From Terriglobia bacterium (GTDB lineage: Bacteria > Acidobacteriota > Terriglobia > Terriglobales > Acidobacteriaceae), in NCBI GenBank assembly GCA_020073185.1, contig JAIQFT010000013.1:1-64000 (forward strand): a stretch of DNA of 64,000 nt, in the 5' to 3' direction. Shown in pieces: positions 9,589 through 18,240 of this stretch. A program made the translations under genes and the position numbers. How positions within the stretch are numbered: position 1 is the first letter of the stretch; each line of letters starts with the position of its first letter. Below the pieces are notes generated by a model. That model had not been told where the DNA came from and did no database searches. It saw only the letters and a list, made by a program, of their open reading frames with translations.

Positions 9589-13806
<4,218 letters not shown>

Positions 13807-13815
13807 TTCTATTCT

Positions 13816-13850
13816 AGTCGCCGGTCGCCAGTCTTCAGTTCTCAGTCGCG
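13816..13850 (+). repeat. Degenerate heptamer array after rpoC
   Basis: Five consecutive 7-mers: AGTCGCC, GGTCGCC, AGTCTTC, AGTTCTC, AGTCGCG. The array lies between the rpoC stop and the terminator stem, and the last unit overlaps the stem. Confidence 0.65.
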
Positions 13851-13868
13851 GGGCCGAACGGCCCCGCG
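13847..13868 (+). terminator. Rho-independent-type terminator of the rpoBC operon
   Basis: A perfect inverted repeat, CGCGGGGCCG-AA-CGGCCCCGCG, is followed by ATTATTGTTT. It lies 40 nt after the rpoC stop codon, where the housekeeping block gives way to accessory genes. Confidence 0.8.
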
Positions 13869-14060
13869 ATTATTGTTTAGTCTAGTTCGACATACGACGG
13901 AGGCGCGCGCAGCGAGAAGTACGCGCATTGATCAGAAACCGAGAGGGGTGACCTTCTGGCAGTTTATGGAAACGAAGGGCTGCGGGCCGGCCATCGGCAT
14001 CTCTGATTTCAGAACTTTCCTGCTCGTGCGCTAAACTGATGCAGACACTCGCAATTCACA

Positions 14061-14882
14061 ATGCCTGCGCTGCCGGATAATTTGACCGCTGCGGAACTGA
14101 AGGGTTTCGCTAAGTGCCCGGTGAAGTGTCCTCTGCTCCGAAAACGGATTATCAGCGTTGCAGACTATCTTGCAGTGATTAGCGACGCGATTCGCACCGA
14201 TGAGCCATTCTGGTTTCGTGGACACGACGACGTCGAGTACAGCCTCACTCCTTCAGCGCTGCGTTTTTCTTCGTATACGAACCGGGCCAAGGCTCTCGGG
14301 CTGATCGCCGATTTCAAACGAATCGCCGGGATGAAGTTACGCCGCGCTCCGGATCCGGCCAACGAATTGGAATGGGCTTTGATTGCTCAGCACTATGGAT
14401 TGCCTACTCGACTGCTGGACTGGACTGAAAGTGCAACAACGGCATTGTACTTCGCGTGCTTGAAAACGGACCGCGACGGATTAGTTTTTATCGTTAACCC
14501 AATAGCGTTGAATCAGCTTAGCTATGCCACCAAGCCCCGTGTGTTGGACCCTCAGGAGGACAACACAACAATTCTTGCGTATTTGCACATGGGCGCTAAA
14601 CGAGCGGCCGGTGGACGCCATCCAGTTGCTATTAATCCAATTTGGAATTCTGAACGGCTGATTATGCAAAAAGGAGTATTCACGCTGCATGGCAGGAAGT
14701 TTGACCTTGATAGTGGAGTTCCATCACTTGTGGCAATTCCAATTTTGCGGGAGTCGAAAGTGAGGCTTAGGTCCGAGCTCCAGCGGGTGGGCGTCGATGA
14801 GATGACCCTTTTCCCTGAGCTCGAACATTCCTGCGCTCACCTGACGCGGAATGCCGGACTTTCGAAGAAAGACGGCAAATGA
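14061..14882 (+). CDS. FRG domain-containing protein
   Basis: 273 residues. The FRG domain (named for the F-x-R-G motif) is clear: FWFRGH at residues 50-55, then EWALIAQHYGLPTRLLDWT at ~104-122 followed by SATTALYFAC. The biochemical role of FRG proteins is not established to my knowledge; they occur often in phage-defence and other accessory loci. There is no signal peptide or membrane segment. It overlaps the next gene by 4 nt (ATGA), so translation is probably coupled. Base composition is visibly AT-richer than rpoC, which suggests transfer. No strong Shine-Dalgarno precedes the ATG. Confidence 0.85.
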   Translation: MPALPDNLTAAELKGFAKCPVKCPLLRKRIISVADYLAVISDAIRTDEPFWFRGHDDVEYSLTPSALRFSSYTNRAKALGLIADFKRIAGMKLRRAPDPANELEWALIAQHYGLPTRLLDWTESATTALYFACLKTDRDGLVFIVNPIALNQLSYATKPRVLDPQEDNTTILAYLHMGAKRAAGGRHPVAINPIWNSERLIMQKGVFTLHGRKFDLDSGVPSLVAIPILRESKVRLRSELQRVGVDEMTLFPELEHSCAHLTRNAGLSKKDGK

Positions 14883-16060
14883 CATCTGACCACATACCCT
14901 TCTTAAACAACGCAACGGATTGCGAAATTGCAAGTAACTGGTACGCCGATTCTGCGTATGTCCGCATTTCGCTGGATACTCTGCCGAAAACCTTGAAGCG
15001 TCTGCCAGTAGGACCTAAACGGTGGCTCGACCCAGGTATGGATGGCCTGCATTGGCCAAACATTTCAAGCAATGCGTATGAGCATCACATGAACCGCTTT
15101 AAGGGTCATCAGCTCATCAGTGACACTGCTTTTCAGCAAAAACCTGACAAGAACGTCGTAAATGAATTTGTCGAGAAGGTTCTGGATTACTGTGTTCAGC
15201 AGCTTGCGGTGCCCGATTGGCTTTCGGTGCCTCAATTGCCCATACTCGGCGATTCCTCTCGCAACAAAATCAACAGAGCTCTTGCTGAGAGCACACGGGC
15301 TTGGCGGTCGAAACGCGGCTTCACGGGAAAGTTGATTGTCCCCGCTGTGTTCACGAACCAACGTCAGCTAAACAAAAAGACAGAGCGCAACAAGAAAATT
15401 GCAGCAGTGCTGAATTCCTACACTACGGCCAGCGCTGATGGCGTTTGGGCTGTTGATGCAACTCTGAATGACCAGGATGGTTCTCGAACCTTCGAACACA
15501 CCCGGTTCCCTGCACTCGTGCAATTTCATTCCGAACTCAATCAAAGTTTGCCGCCCGACCCAATTACCATTGCGGGGCCGTATTGGGGCATCAACACTGT
15601 TATCTGGGCTCGCGGACTGGTGAAGTTTTCTGCCATTGGAATGGGGAACTCGTACCAGTATCACATTCCTGGGACCGTGGTGTTGGGTGGTAAGTCGCGC
15701 CTCGCGCTCTCGCCCCTGCGACGATGGGTGATTGCCAGTCCGGCTCTCAAGAAATGGCTAGACAGCGTGGTCTCAACGATTGCCGCAACAGACCCGTCTT
15801 TTTCCGATTTTTCATCACTCGCGAAGGACTTCGCGCGGTTGCAGGTACAACTTGAAGGCAGACGGCAGATCGCACAATTTTACAAGCAGTGGTTTGACAG
15901 GTTTGCAACCCTACCGCCATCAGGACGCGCACTGGCCCTGTACCAGGACCTCTCTTCTGCGTATGTGCTAGGCAAGAATCTTCCCGAACTGCCGGAAGAA
16001 GAAAAGACGGCGCGCAGCCCCGCTCGAATCGCAAAACAACTTATGTTGAATTGTCTTTAG
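14879..16060 (+). CDS. Unrecognised protein in FRG/nuclease module (possible TIM-barrel)
   Basis: 393 residues that I do not recognise. It overlaps the FRG gene by ATGA and, at its 3' end, overlaps the convergent nuclease-like gene by 20 nt. There are no membrane segments. Residues ~115-270 alternate hydrophobic strands and helices: LSVPQLPI, KLIVPAVFTN, ADGVWAVDAT, DPITIAGPYWGIN, then WARGL...AIGMGNSYQY. This spacing recalls TIM-barrel enzymes of the tRNA-guanine transglycosylase type, including DNA-modifying DpdA, but this is only an inference from pattern. The low GC matches its partner genes. Confidence 0.75.
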   Translation: MTSDHIPFLNNATDCEIASNWYADSAYVRISLDTLPKTLKRLPVGPKRWLDPGMDGLHWPNISSNAYEHHMNRFKGHQLISDTAFQQKPDKNVVNEFVEKVLDYCVQQLAVPDWLSVPQLPILGDSSRNKINRALAESTRAWRSKRGFTGKLIVPAVFTNQRQLNKKTERNKKIAAVLNSYTTASADGVWAVDATLNDQDGSRTFEHTRFPALVQFHSELNQSLPPDPITIAGPYWGINTVIWARGLVKFSAIGMGNSYQYHIPGTVVLGGKSRLALSPLRRWVIASPALKKWLDSVVSTIAATDPSFSDFSSLAKDFARLQVQLEGRRQIAQFYKQWFDRFATLPPSGRALALYQDLSSAYVLGKNLPELPEEEKTARSPARIAKQLMLNCL

Positions 16061-16721
16061 TGCGCCAAAACCGCTCAACGCAATGCATCTGTAAAGTAAG
16101 GTCAGGCTGAATGCCGTTTCCCGAAGGCTTCAAAATCACTTTGCAGTTCGTATACGTGACACCAAGGATTCCCACGCCCGCCTGAACAAATTTCTGCCGG
16201 CGCGGTCCGCGCGTGAGCCGCCACCCAGTTTCAGCAGGGACAGCTATAAACGATTCTGAAGCGAATGCGCGATTGGAACGGGCCTGGACCAATGCATCAG
16301 CAATCCGGTTTAGCTTCAGCTCGATCGCGATAATTCGGTTGTGAAGAGGCACCCACCCATTCTGTTTTTGTAATGTCCCTCTGTCCGTCCGGAGCACAAA
16401 TCGGCTAGCAATCAGCTTCTCGACTTCCGCTTGAACGTAAGCGGCAGGGGCGCCGGATAGCGTTTGTAAGCGGGGCAGTGCGATGGTGCGACCGGAATTC
16501 TTGTCGGGAATGTAGCGTAACAAGCCGATTCGCCCCAGCGGACCAATGGGGTTGATCTGGCGAAACTGAAGCCTCTTGTTCACTCGTTTTACGTTGAATG
16601 ACAGAGCGACAAAGTCGCAAATGCCCCAAGGCGTCGCATATTCTTGTTTGACTTGCAATCCCTGTTGCTGAAGCCAGTTACGAACCGGCTGCCCCATGTC
16701 GCGTTCAAGATTGAAACTCAT
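16041..16721 (-). CDS. PD-(D/E)XK-like nuclease, convergent to FRG pair
   Basis: 226 residues. Residues 32-37 (WGICDF, Asp36) and 133-136 (IELK, Glu134 and Lys136) form a D...ExK pattern, and an N-terminal Glu6 lies in a helix, as in PD-(D/E)XK nucleases. About 97 residues separate D36 from the ExK; part of that insert (residues ~85-125) could be a winged helix. The start at 16721 (MSFNLERDMGQPVRNW) has an ideal AAGGAGATCAAC upstream; a longer in-frame reading to 16973 lacks such support. Its 3' end overlaps the preceding convergent gene by 20 nt. The nuclease assignment is inferred from the motif only. Confidence 0.7.
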   Translation of the reverse strand: MSFNLERDMGQPVRNWLQQQGLQVKQEYATPWGICDFVALSFNVKRVNKRLQFRQINPIGPLGRIGLLRYIPDKNSGRTIALPRLQTLSGAPAAYVQAEVEKLIASRFVLRTDRGTLQKQNGWVPLHNRIIAIELKLNRIADALVQARSNRAFASESFIAVPAETGWRLTRGPRRQKFVQAGVGILGVTYTNCKVILKPSGNGIQPDLTLQMHCVERFWRTKDNST

Positions 16722-17003
16722 GTTGATCTCCTTAACATTATGAACCAAAAAACAGCGAGCCGGCATTGAAGATTTACCGACGGCAGTCCGACCTAACTTT
16801 CGAACTGGGTCTAGCAAGACGGGGCGCGGGGCTGCGGTCAGCAGCAAATCTTTGCCGACGCTGCCTTCGACCCCAGGCCTCGCGATACGGGCGGTAGAGG
16901 TTGCGCTGGGTGCGAGGGTCGAGGCGCACGGTGAGGTGGCGCTGAGTGCCGCTGCCAGGCACTTGACGTGCACTATTTATATACGTTCTTGGGGTTCAAA
17001 CCT

Positions 17004-17192
17004 ATGGCCGTAAGGGTGACCTCCATCCGTCTCGACACGGAGCTTGCCGATGAAGCCGCCAAGGTGCTCGGGGTCAAGTCGCACACCGAGGCGGTGTGGG
17101 TTGCGCTGCGGGAAGTCGTGGCGCTGAAGGAATTTAAGGCCCTGATGCGCAGGAACGCTGGCAAGCACAAGTTCGCAGGTCTCGATGAGTGA
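17004..17192 (+). CDS. VapB-type antitoxin (orphan)
   Basis: 62 residues, MAVRVTSIRLDTELADEAAK..., a ribbon-helix-helix-like antitoxin of the type that represses its own promoter and neutralises a PIN toxin. Residues 28-45 (TEAVWVALREVVALKEF) fit the VapB helix. No toxin gene follows directly; the next gene is a second, different antitoxin. Its last 51 nt are nearly duplicated at 17945-17995. The ATG at 17004 is used; an upstream in-frame start at 16968 is less likely. Confidence 0.75.
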   Translation: MAVRVTSIRLDTELADEAAKVLGVKSHTEAVWVALREVVALKEFKALMRRNAGKHKFAGLDE

Positions 17193-17262
17193 AGTTGCCA
17201 TCCAGCCGGGTGGAGCGGCCCTCAGGCCTTAAGGGACACATAACCTGTGCTACACTGTTTAT

Positions 17263-17499
17263 GTGCCAAACAACAACGTCACCCTGACCATGGATAAGGA
17301 CCTGTTGCGCGCCGCCCGCAAGGTCGCCCTCGACCGCAACACCTCGGTCAACCAGTTGGTTCGCGACTTCCTCGCGCAATTAGTTCGCGAATCCGGTCGG
17401 CAGCAGGTCGCGGCCGAGCGCATGGACGAGTTCTTCAAGCGGCATCGCATTCGCATCGGCCGTCGCACCTGGACGCGCCAGGACCTGCATGAGCGCTGA
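17263..17499 (+). CDS. Ribbon-helix-helix antitoxin paired with PIN toxin
   Basis: 78 residues starting at GTG (MPNNNVTLTMDKDLLRAARK). The strand VTLTM and the helix LLRAARKVALDRNTSVNQLVRDFL are typical of a DNA-binding RHH antitoxin, and the basic C-terminus (HRIRIGRRTWTRQDLHER) likely wraps the toxin. It overlaps the PIN toxin gene by 11 nt. A TACACT -10-like box lies 7 nt before the GTG with no Shine-Dalgarno, so the mRNA may be leaderless. Confidence 0.85.
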   Translation: MPNNNVTLTMDKDLLRAARKVALDRNTSVNQLVRDFLAQLVRESGRQQVAAERMDEFFKRHRIRIGRRTWTRQDLHER

Positions 17500-17926
17500 C
17501 CCCGCGGAAATCTGTTTTGTGGATACGAATGTCTTCGTCTATGCGTTGACGGAAGATGATCCGGTCCGCTCCGCCAAGGCACAACAACTGATCGCCCGAT
17601 TACGGTCGACGCAATCGCTACGCACCAGCACGCAGGTCTTGTCGGAATTGTTCGTGACCTTGACGCGCAAGGTGCGCACGCCCTTGTCTCCCGCTGCCGC
17701 TCTGGAATATCTCGACCAGATTGCCGCATGGCCGGTTATCGCGCCCGACTACAGCGCGATCCGTGACGCTTGCCAACTCAGCGCTTCCGCCAAACTTTCG
17801 TTCTGGGACGCCCTCGTTGTGGTCGCGGCTTCCCGCGCCGGCGCCACTCGTTTATATTCCGAGGACCTCAATCCCGGCCAGAGGCTTCTCGGGGTTGAAG
17901 TCGTGAATCCGTTTCGCCCCGCCTGA
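17489..17926 (+). CDS. VapC-type PIN domain ribonuclease toxin
   Basis: 145 residues. The PIN domain acidic residues are visible: VDTNVFVYA (Asp12), LSELF (Glu53), SFWDALVVVAA (Asp107) and YSEDLN (Glu125/Asp126). PIN toxins are magnesium-dependent RNases that cleave tRNA or rRNA when the antitoxin is lost. It overlaps the preceding antitoxin by 11 nt, the usual coupled arrangement. The length is normal and no key residue is missing. Confidence 0.9.
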   Translation: MSADPAEICFVDTNVFVYALTEDDPVRSAKAQQLIARLRSTQSLRTSTQVLSELFVTLTRKVRTPLSPAAALEYLDQIAAWPVIAPDYSAIRDACQLSASAKLSFWDALVVVAASRAGATRLYSEDLNPGQRLLGVEVVNPFRPA

Positions 17927-17944
17927 CTCTCGACCGCGCACAAG

Positions 17945-17995
17945 CTCATGCGCAGGAACGCAGGCTAGCACAAGTTCGCAGGTCTCGATGAGTGA
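17945..17995 (+). pseudogene. Decayed tail of a vapB gene (direct repeat of 17142-17192)
   Basis: This 51-nt segment matches the last 51 nt of the antitoxin gene at 17004-17192 at 48 positions. One of the three changes turns an AAG codon into TAG, so it cannot encode the same tail. It lies right after the PIN toxin, so the RHH/PIN pair sits between two copies of a vapB end. Confidence 0.8.
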
Positions 17996-18240
17996 TGGAG
18001 CGATGGTTCGCGGCCCGGGATGCTAAACTGAGGCCCGCGCGACGATTTAGAATGGAGCGAGGGGCCGGGCATCCGCCCCCCTTGCTGTAGGGTCCGGGTA
18101 GCAGAGTTCGCTATTCCCGGAAGCGGCCCCGAGCCTGTAAAGTACGCCGATAGCGGAGGAATACGGTCGGCATCGCGATTGAAATCCCCGAGCAGGGTCG
18201 GTCGAGTGAAGGACCGAGTGGGCCGGCCCGCGCCTCGTTT

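Follow-up and report, generated by a model that had tools for sequence, protein, structure and literature searches.

Three adjacent genes behind rpoC, which encode an FRG-domain protein (gene 1), a protein without a match in the family libraries (gene 2) and a PD-(D/E)XK-type protein (gene 3), probably constitute an undescribed small defence system, because their order is kept in two distantly related bacteria and known defence genes are found alongside. The window, i.e., the whole stretch of 64,000 nucleotides that was analysed, carries all three open reading frames (ORFs) intact at 14061-16721. The basis of this proposal is what is observed, namely the genes and their domains, the conserved motifs, the conserved order and overlaps, and the defence-type neighbourhoods. 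The features concerned are as follows.

13844..13871, + strand: rpoC terminator-like hairpin with a 12-pair stem and a T-rich tail, the left edge of the variable slot
13875..18002, unstranded: variable slot of 4.1 kb that contains the three genes, from rpoC to a far-edge gene that we take to be YihY-like
14061..14882, + strand: gene 1, FRG-domain protein, 273 aa
14879..16060, + strand: gene 2, family without library match, 393 aa
16041..16721, - strand: gene 3, PD-(D/E)XK-type, 226 aa
16968-17192: VapB-like gene, toxin-antitoxin (TA) type, 3' of the trio
17263-17499: DUF6364/RHH gene, TA type, 3' of the trio
17489-17926: PIN gene, TA type, 3' of the trio

Genes 1 and 2 are joined by an ATGA start/stop overlap, and gene 3 is convergent with gene 2, their 3' ends sharing 20 nt; both overlaps had been described in the earlier note and are seen in the ORFs. 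The same note had placed the three compact genes in an AT-richer island between the rpoC terminator and TA genes, and this description holds: the 1-kb bins of 14001-17000 have GC contents of 0.517, 0.527 and 0.543, the lowest three of the 64 bins in the window, the hairpin follows the end of the rpoC ORF at 13806, and the TA genes start at 16968. Sequence similarity to three congeners breaks off at 13867-13874. In the slot these congeners carry different DNA (about 5.0, 1.2 and 1.2-1.4 kb), and in another three relatives the slot measures about 0.2 kb or less, the sizes being obtained by arithmetic on the match coordinates of the comparisons. Gene 2 was not found in the three congeners searched. 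The slot behind rpoC is a place where different genes, including at least one for defence, have been exchanged, since one congener carries a QatC gene there (2.1e-73). In those stretches of the three genes that were compared, differences lie mainly at third codon positions (0.45/0.31/0.65 by codon position in gene 2) and, to judge from this pattern, the trio is under constraint at the amino-acid level. Because full-length homologues of genes 2 and 3 exist with the same layout in another family, and because of this third-position bias, the trio is more than a set of chance ORFs. In the window itself, the neighbours of the trio are TA-type genes.

The other family is represented by G519, a genome of the same class, in which the order of the trio, the start/stop overlap and the convergent 3' overlap are all repeated. 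Its identity to the window is 46% for gene 2 (full length, E 1.1e-107), 41% for gene 3 and 49% for the C-terminal half of the FRG protein; genes 2 and 3 are both intact, with a convergent overlap of 29 nt. The N-terminal half of the FRG protein, which bears the R-G and QH/TRLLDW motifs, was not found at the G519 locus, and FRG may be dispensable or this copy may be decaying. The C-terminal halves of the two FRG proteins match with 134 bits, against at most 49 bits (24-33% identity) for the other FRGs compared; because this pair is much more alike than either half is to other FRGs, we consider that FRG travelled with gene 2. The G519 trio adjoins the type I-E genes cas6e and cas1e and a PDC-M55C protein. 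Viral-contig scans gave one contig with gene 3, a phage contig on which this gene (41%) converges on the C-terminal 47 residues of a gene 2; within the 10.7 kb examined, gene 2 is present only as this remnant and FRG was not found. In a soil MAG fragment, pieces of genes 2 and 3 lie next to Thoeris ThsB (2.5e-72); the fragment shows rearrangement, and its assembly may be chimeric. The earlier note had suggested a defence or DNA-modification system: the settings in G519, the MAG fragment and the congener slot favour defence, whereas nothing was found that points to DNA modification.

Gene 1 matches Pfam FRG (PF08867) at 1.1e-21, with 78 bits versus a curated cut-off of 25, and PADLOC PDC-S15 (PDLC04938) at 3.7e-46 over residues 28-264, which bears out the FRG domain recognised in the earlier note. 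In an alignment of 22 FRG proteins, from which matches of <150 residues were excluded, R53, G54, P115-T116-R117, D120, R199, Q203 and P252 are invariant (22/22) and H111 is kept in 21. Gene 1 belongs to the family by profile with its core motifs intact, and it deviates from the aligned proteins at position 78 (A, where the others mostly have E) and at 255-257; it is presumed to be an ART-fold NAD-using enzyme. PADLOC has the FRG family among its defence candidates, and FRG proteins are common, occurring in 41 of 396 genomes of the phylum, window included. In PMC9503650, Frg is assigned to the ART superfamily; one passage of that paper counts it with the signal-generating immune enzymes that have been characterised biochemically, and another says that it might also be an NADase. 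Part of the interest of the trio is that it contains a widespread protein that PMC9503650 describes as an ART-superfamily enzyme of prokaryotic immunity. At 30 other FRG loci, no relative of gene 2 or gene 3 (E <0.01) was found within about 1.5 kb, or less near contig ends; the neighbours at these loci and in five plasmid neighbourhoods differ from locus to locus and never include gene 2 or 3. Long FRG frames of up to 742 aa were rejected as FRG-gene 2 fusions, the extra length being unrelated read-through in GC-rich frames (six loci).

Gene 2 had no family match better than E 0.033 in Pfam, NCBIfam, PADLOC or PHROGs, and it adds a protein family that is lacking in these four libraries. It is rare, convincing carriers being two of the 399 genomes of the class, window included. 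The class search listed 16 genomes, 14 of which gave weak matches for gene 2 (E 4e-4 to 0.05); 13 of these 14 (L038-L050, with G492 left out) look like chance, being short or broken frames or parts of unrelated long proteins, one group of which is presumably an M1-peptidase-like family. Searches of plasmids and phages with gene 2 by tblastn gave no match, and an AlphaFold model from its single sequence (P0002) had a pLDDT of 34.9. Full-length gene 2 is known from just two genomes, so the sample for co-occurrence is tiny. Counting co-occurrence had been proposed in the earlier note, and the outcome is divided: the trio stands together in the one other genome with a full gene 2, but FRG and PD-(D/E)XK relatives are generally apart.

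The earlier note had also assigned gene 3 to the PD-(D/E)XK type, and a check on conservation of the nuclease motif agrees with it: D36, E134, K136 and Q146 (D...ExK...Q) are invariant in three diverged homologues. With this motif conserved, gene 3 looks like a PD-(D/E)XK-type protein and is a predicted nuclease. ExK...QA is present in the 10 wider relatives selected for display, and among three wider relatives outside that set, L057 and L065 have ExK and L066 does not; L066 (E 9.4e-4) was rejected as a relative for this reason, as was L006 (E 5.8e-4), whose matching frame overlaps another long ORF. By hhalign, gene 3 matches its wider relatives with Prob 98.9 and 98.2, most of these relatives having been collected by the gene 3 profile itself; the latter value is for residues 26-195 aligned with winged-helix PD-(D/E)XK relatives. 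Such winged-helix proteins (L053 of an Arthrobacter plasmid, L057 and L064) share GI(C/A)D, ExK and QA with gene 3, and no gene 2 is listed in the L053 neighbourhood. A winged helix possibly lies between D36 and E134-x-K136 of gene 3, and two homologues of gene 3 gave weak ArsR-like matches (E 0.1 and 0.036), both far under the curated cut-offs. Gene 3 itself has no direct match in Pfam, and its wider relative L058 matches PDDEXK_9 weakly (E 0.0038, under the Pfam cut-off). An AlphaFold model from a three-row alignment had a pLDDT of 43.8, and a Foldseek search with this low-confidence model returned nothing significant (best E 0.77). Against plasmids, tblastn with gene 3 gave no match; against phages, the matches were to a tail protein (E 0.9) in two records for a single Burkholderia phage, and we took them as chance.

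On the sequence evidence, we regard it as fairly probable that the trio is one horizontally acquired module against phages (mobile elements), composed of the FRG enzyme, the coupled gene 2 partner and the convergent nuclease. Gene 1, as an FRG-family ART-fold enzyme, would most likely act on NAD+ once activated, and would either drain NAD+ or make an ADP-ribose-type signal. Gene 2 would be translated by coupling from gene 1 as its dedicated partner, most likely a regulator or a sensor of infection. Gene 3 would form the convergent unit, a PD-(D/E)XK nuclease cutting or sensing foreign DNA, with the possible winged-helix insertion reading DNA. NAD use, sensing, nuclease activity, joint action and phage protection are what we infer from the observed genes and settings. 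Several findings speak against a single module: the tiny co-occurrence sample, the G519 copy in which no FRG N-terminal half was found, the phage contig with gene 3 but no FRG in the part examined, the low-confidence models of genes 2 and 3, the lack of a direct Pfam match for gene 3, and the possible chimera in the MAG fragment. A more elaborate scheme is offered tentatively: the trio would be an immune system whose gene 2, the founding member of its family, senses infection and governs two separate outputs, FRG on NAD+ and the winged-helix nuclease on DNA, and phages would take the nuclease half, perhaps for counter-defence or inter-phage competition.

Among alternatives to the single module, the one that survives best, somewhat doubtful in our judgement, is that two units meet at a common 3' end. 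One would be a PDC-S15-type defence gene made up of FRG, alone or joined by gene 2; the other would be gene 3, on its own or together with gene 2, as an independent nuclease cassette that works like beta/sce7726. The beta (PF14350)/sce7726 cassette occurs on plasmids and in genomes, and likewise has a gene of roughly 300-390 codons and a convergent, 3'-overlapping PD-(D/E)XK-like gene (sce7726 is a PD-(D/E)XK protein, as read from its motif); the convergent overlap was seen in 3/3 genome loci and 6/8 plasmid loci opened. Two units would also suit the variable FRG neighbours elsewhere, G519 with genes 2 and 3 but without the FRG N-terminal half, and the phage contig with gene 3 but no FRG in the part examined. 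Against this stand the start/stop overlap that couples FRG to gene 2 in the window and in G519 alike, and the closeness of the two FRG C-terminal halves. Moreover, hhalign gave Prob 0.2 each for gene 2 vs beta and gene 3 vs sce7726, so that no homology was detected, although these alignments are shallow and very remote kinship is possible; the identification of gene 2 as a beta protein and of gene 3 as sce7726 was rejected accordingly, the anatomy being alike. Genes upstream of beta/sce7726 are of XRE/ImmA type in 4/8 plasmid loci opened and never FRG, and in the alignment sce7726 has no insertion between the D and ExK motifs.

We think it unlikely that the trio is a TA or addiction module with FRG as toxin, gene 2 as neutraliser and gene 3 as a DNA-binding regulator not using nuclease activity. 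The tight overlap of FRG and gene 2, the adjoining TA genes and the possible winged helix with its ArsR-like matches would suit such a module, but genes 2 and 3 are intact in G519 despite the missing N-terminal half of FRG, gene 3 keeps its full D...ExK...Q motif, and gene 2 exceeds the usual size of an antitoxin. That these are housekeeping or DNA-modification genes without a defence role, e.g., with gene 2 folding as a TIM barrel of the TGT/DpdA kind and modifying DNA, is very improbable. In its favour is the loosely TIM-barrel-like strand pattern of gene 2, an impression from its sequence with no tool result. Against it, hhalign with 22 TGTs gave Prob 0.2, no Pfam TGT match was obtained, and the trio occupies a low-GC variable slot, with gene 2 absent from the three congeners searched.

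Returning to the single-module reading, the trio differs from the known systems near it. PDC-S15, in which we take "S" to denote a single-gene candidate system, is catalogued as such, whereas here FRG is start/stop-coupled to gene 2 in both genomes and faces the convergent gene 3. Qat, Thoeris and type I-E CRISPR-Cas are neighbours or slot-sharers of the trio or its relatives but consist of different proteins, and genes 1-3 gave no match to any PADLOC profile of these systems. The trio, i.e., FRG with a dedicated partner and a nuclease in an order conserved across families, is a defined unit in which the activity, activation and target of FRG could be studied directly. Two plasmid matches to the G519 proteins may be added: H43 (E 0.2), a protein from a T6SS region, was taken as chance, and H44 (E 0.5) is a wider relative of gene 3.

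The trio behind rpoC is, judged from its sequence, a real, conserved and rare three-gene candidate defence module, and a putative new variation on FRG-type defence. No description of it was found in the literature, judged by titles and abstract openings, and one of its proteins represents a family absent from the libraries searched. The ORFs and their upstream border are as follows.

13844-13871: terminator-like hairpin of rpoC, upstream border of the trio
14061-14882, + strand: ORF of gene 1, FRG protein
14879-16060, + strand: ORF of gene 2, unknown protein; ATGA overlap with gene 1
16041-16721, - strand: ORF of gene 3, nuclease-like protein; convergent with gene 2, 20-nt overlap

The layout described in the earlier note was reproduced in full, including both overlaps, the position between the rpoC hairpin on one side and TA-type genes on the other, and the AT-richer island, where GC falls to 0.517-0.543 between 14001 and 17000, in the three lowest of the window's 64 bins. 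The FRG domain claimed for gene 1 was likewise confirmed by a Pfam match (1.1e-21), by a match of residues 28-264 to the PADLOC candidate PDC-S15 (3.7e-46), and by core residues, including R53, G54, P115, T116, R117, D120, R199, Q203 and P252, that are invariant across 22 aligned FRG proteins (gene 1 included; matches under 150 residues excluded).

For gene 2, nothing better than E 0.033 was obtained from Pfam, NCBIfam, PADLOC and PHROGs, and PDB sequences gave nothing of note (best E 0.64). Among 399 class genomes, 16 were listed at E up to 0.05, and the convincing ones were the window's own and G519, a genome of another family of the same class, whose protein is 46% identical along its entire length (E 1.1e-107). 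Of the 14 weak matches, 13 were examined and appeared chance-like. Further searches of 297 phylum genomes and of 41 relatives detected gene 2 in the window's genome only, and a search of 18 genomes of G519's family detected it in G519 only; these sets overlap with one another.

The proposal that gene 3 is a PD-(D/E)XK nuclease was upheld in part. Its motif is conserved, since D36, E134, K136 and Q146 are invariant across its three diverged homologues, and wider relatives point the same way, whereas no direct family match was found. Its profile aligned by hhalign with eight shorter PD-(D/E)XK-like proteins (Prob 98.9, residues 128-209) and with three having a winged-helix-like insertion (Prob 98.2, residues 26-195); as it was the gene 3 profile that had retrieved most of these wider relatives, the scores confirm the relation and are not independent evidence. 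The outside link is the weak match of one wider relative, L058, to PDDEXK_9 (E 0.0038, below the cut-off). ExK...QA is present in 10 selected wider relatives; three more were checked, and ExK is there in L057 and L065 and missing from L066. Weak ArsR-like HTH matches in two homologues (residues 55-118 and 57-115, E 0.1 and 0.036) point to a possible, unproved winged-helix insertion in gene 3. Two records unrelated to each other place proteins of this wider family close to serine/threonine kinase genes, L005 (537-1875; kinase presumed from motifs) and the Arthrobacter plasmid L053 (3827-6869).

Linkage of the trio is drawn from two carriers and two fragments. On one contig, G519 has the C-terminal half of an FRG gene (49% identity to gene 1 residues 139-267), gene 2, whose start uses the final base of the FRG stop codon, and a convergent gene 3 (41% identity) overlapping gene 2 by 29 nt, in this order. 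The FRG C-terminal halves of the two carriers align with 134 bits, whereas no other FRG protein in the comparison exceeds 49 bits (24-33% identity). For each of the three genes, the parts compared show less change at codon positions 1 and 2 than at position 3, and synonymous change is near saturation. Adjoining the G519 copy are cas6e, cas1e and a PADLOC PDC-M55C protein, DUF262-type by our own reading. The IMG/VR contig IMGVR_UViG_3300045741_000487 carries a complete gene 3 (41%) that converges on what is left of a gene 2, its C-terminal 47 residues (60% identity). Genes of phage type surround them (head-tail connector, sigma-70 region 2 and, below the cut-off, terminase-like), and no FRG was found in the 10.7 kb examined. 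The soil MAG contig JAIQFW010000297 (Terriglobia SRVP_32; L007 1961-3069) has a 449-bp piece of gene 2 (100% identity) joined at an 11-bp shared sequence to 671 bp, inverted, of part of gene 3 and its upstream DNA (99.6%), next to a Thoeris ThsB gene (2.5e-72); this fusion may be a real strain rearrangement or an assembly chimera.

As to co-occurrence, on which the earlier note had made its case depend, the linkage holds for this subfamily trio, whereas the wide FRG and PD-(D/E)XK families are mostly apart. This follows from three counts. Of 396 phylum genomes, 41 have FRG genes (the window's counted), and gene 2 or gene 3 relatives (E below 0.01) accompany none of 30 other FRG loci (29 phylum-genome matches and a second FRG of the window's genome) over a distance of about 1.5 kb, or a shorter one where the contig ends. 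Five plasmid FRG neighbourhoods, from 322 matched records, have no such pair annotated, their neighbours including a DUF262 gene or IS elements. Gene 3 profile matches occur in 12 of 399 class genomes, full-length in the window's and G519's only; the remainder are partial matches, mostly to PD-(D/E)XK-like proteins that are shorter or have another architecture. The second FRG of the window's genome (L002, G000:C13:94267-94947; 29% identity) has no gene 2 or gene 3 relatives in the 3.7-kb stretch covered. FRG genes adjoin a DUF262-type gene, another possible FRG pair, in a same-phylum genome (L013 381-2304, where we take the partner to be of this type) and a Hymenobacter plasmid (L129 3995-6021).

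From its family, the FRG protein would be an ART-fold enzyme acting on NAD+, either draining it or making a signal; gene 2, overlapping and co-inherited, may be a coupled regulator or sensor; gene 3, from its motif and relatives, is a probable nuclease; and the conserved order suggests joint action. The main uncertainty of this mechanism is that G519 keeps genes 2 and 3 without the FRG half bearing the R-G and QH/TRLLDW motifs, which was not found in its 18-kb stretch. G519 may have either a decaying copy or a core of genes 2 and 3 alone, with FRG as an addition.

The trio resembles the cassette of the beta family (PF14350) and sce7726 in that a PD-(D/E)XK-like gene and a convergent neighbour overlap at their 3' ends; it differs in that homology was found for neither gene 2 nor gene 3, and we therefore did not file it there. 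The convergent overlap of that cassette was present in all three genome loci (L114-L116) and, by annotation, in six of the eight plasmid loci inspected among 18 records with matches (32-62 nt), one partner being unannotated in the other two. XRE/ImmA-type genes precede the pair in four of the eight (loci including L117-L122). No functional study of this pair was found in the literature searched, by titles and abstract openings.

The trio occupies a variable slot, which in one congener harbours a defence gene, as content and length differ among the six relatives compared. By arithmetic on match coordinates, the slot, which runs from rpoC to a conserved, presumably YihY-like gene, is 4.1 kb in the window, and other DNA fills it in three congeners (about 5.0 kb in G112, 1.2 kb in G748, 1.2-1.4 kb in G749), in which gene 2 was not found; it is about 0.2 kb or less in G671, G750 and G753. 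G748 has an IS200-like transposase there. In G112 the slot holds a QatC gene (2.1e-73) behind three other ORFs, one of which encodes a TPR protein (L082 867-4632); in a PADLOC scan of these four ORFs QatC was the only Qat gene recognised. Beyond the trio, a 51-nt direct repeat (94%; 17142-17192 and 17945-17995) brackets an RHH/PIN pair, which looks as if inserted or duplicated; the upstream repeat copy forms the 3' end of a VapB-like gene (16968-17192) that has no toxin gene of its own beside it.
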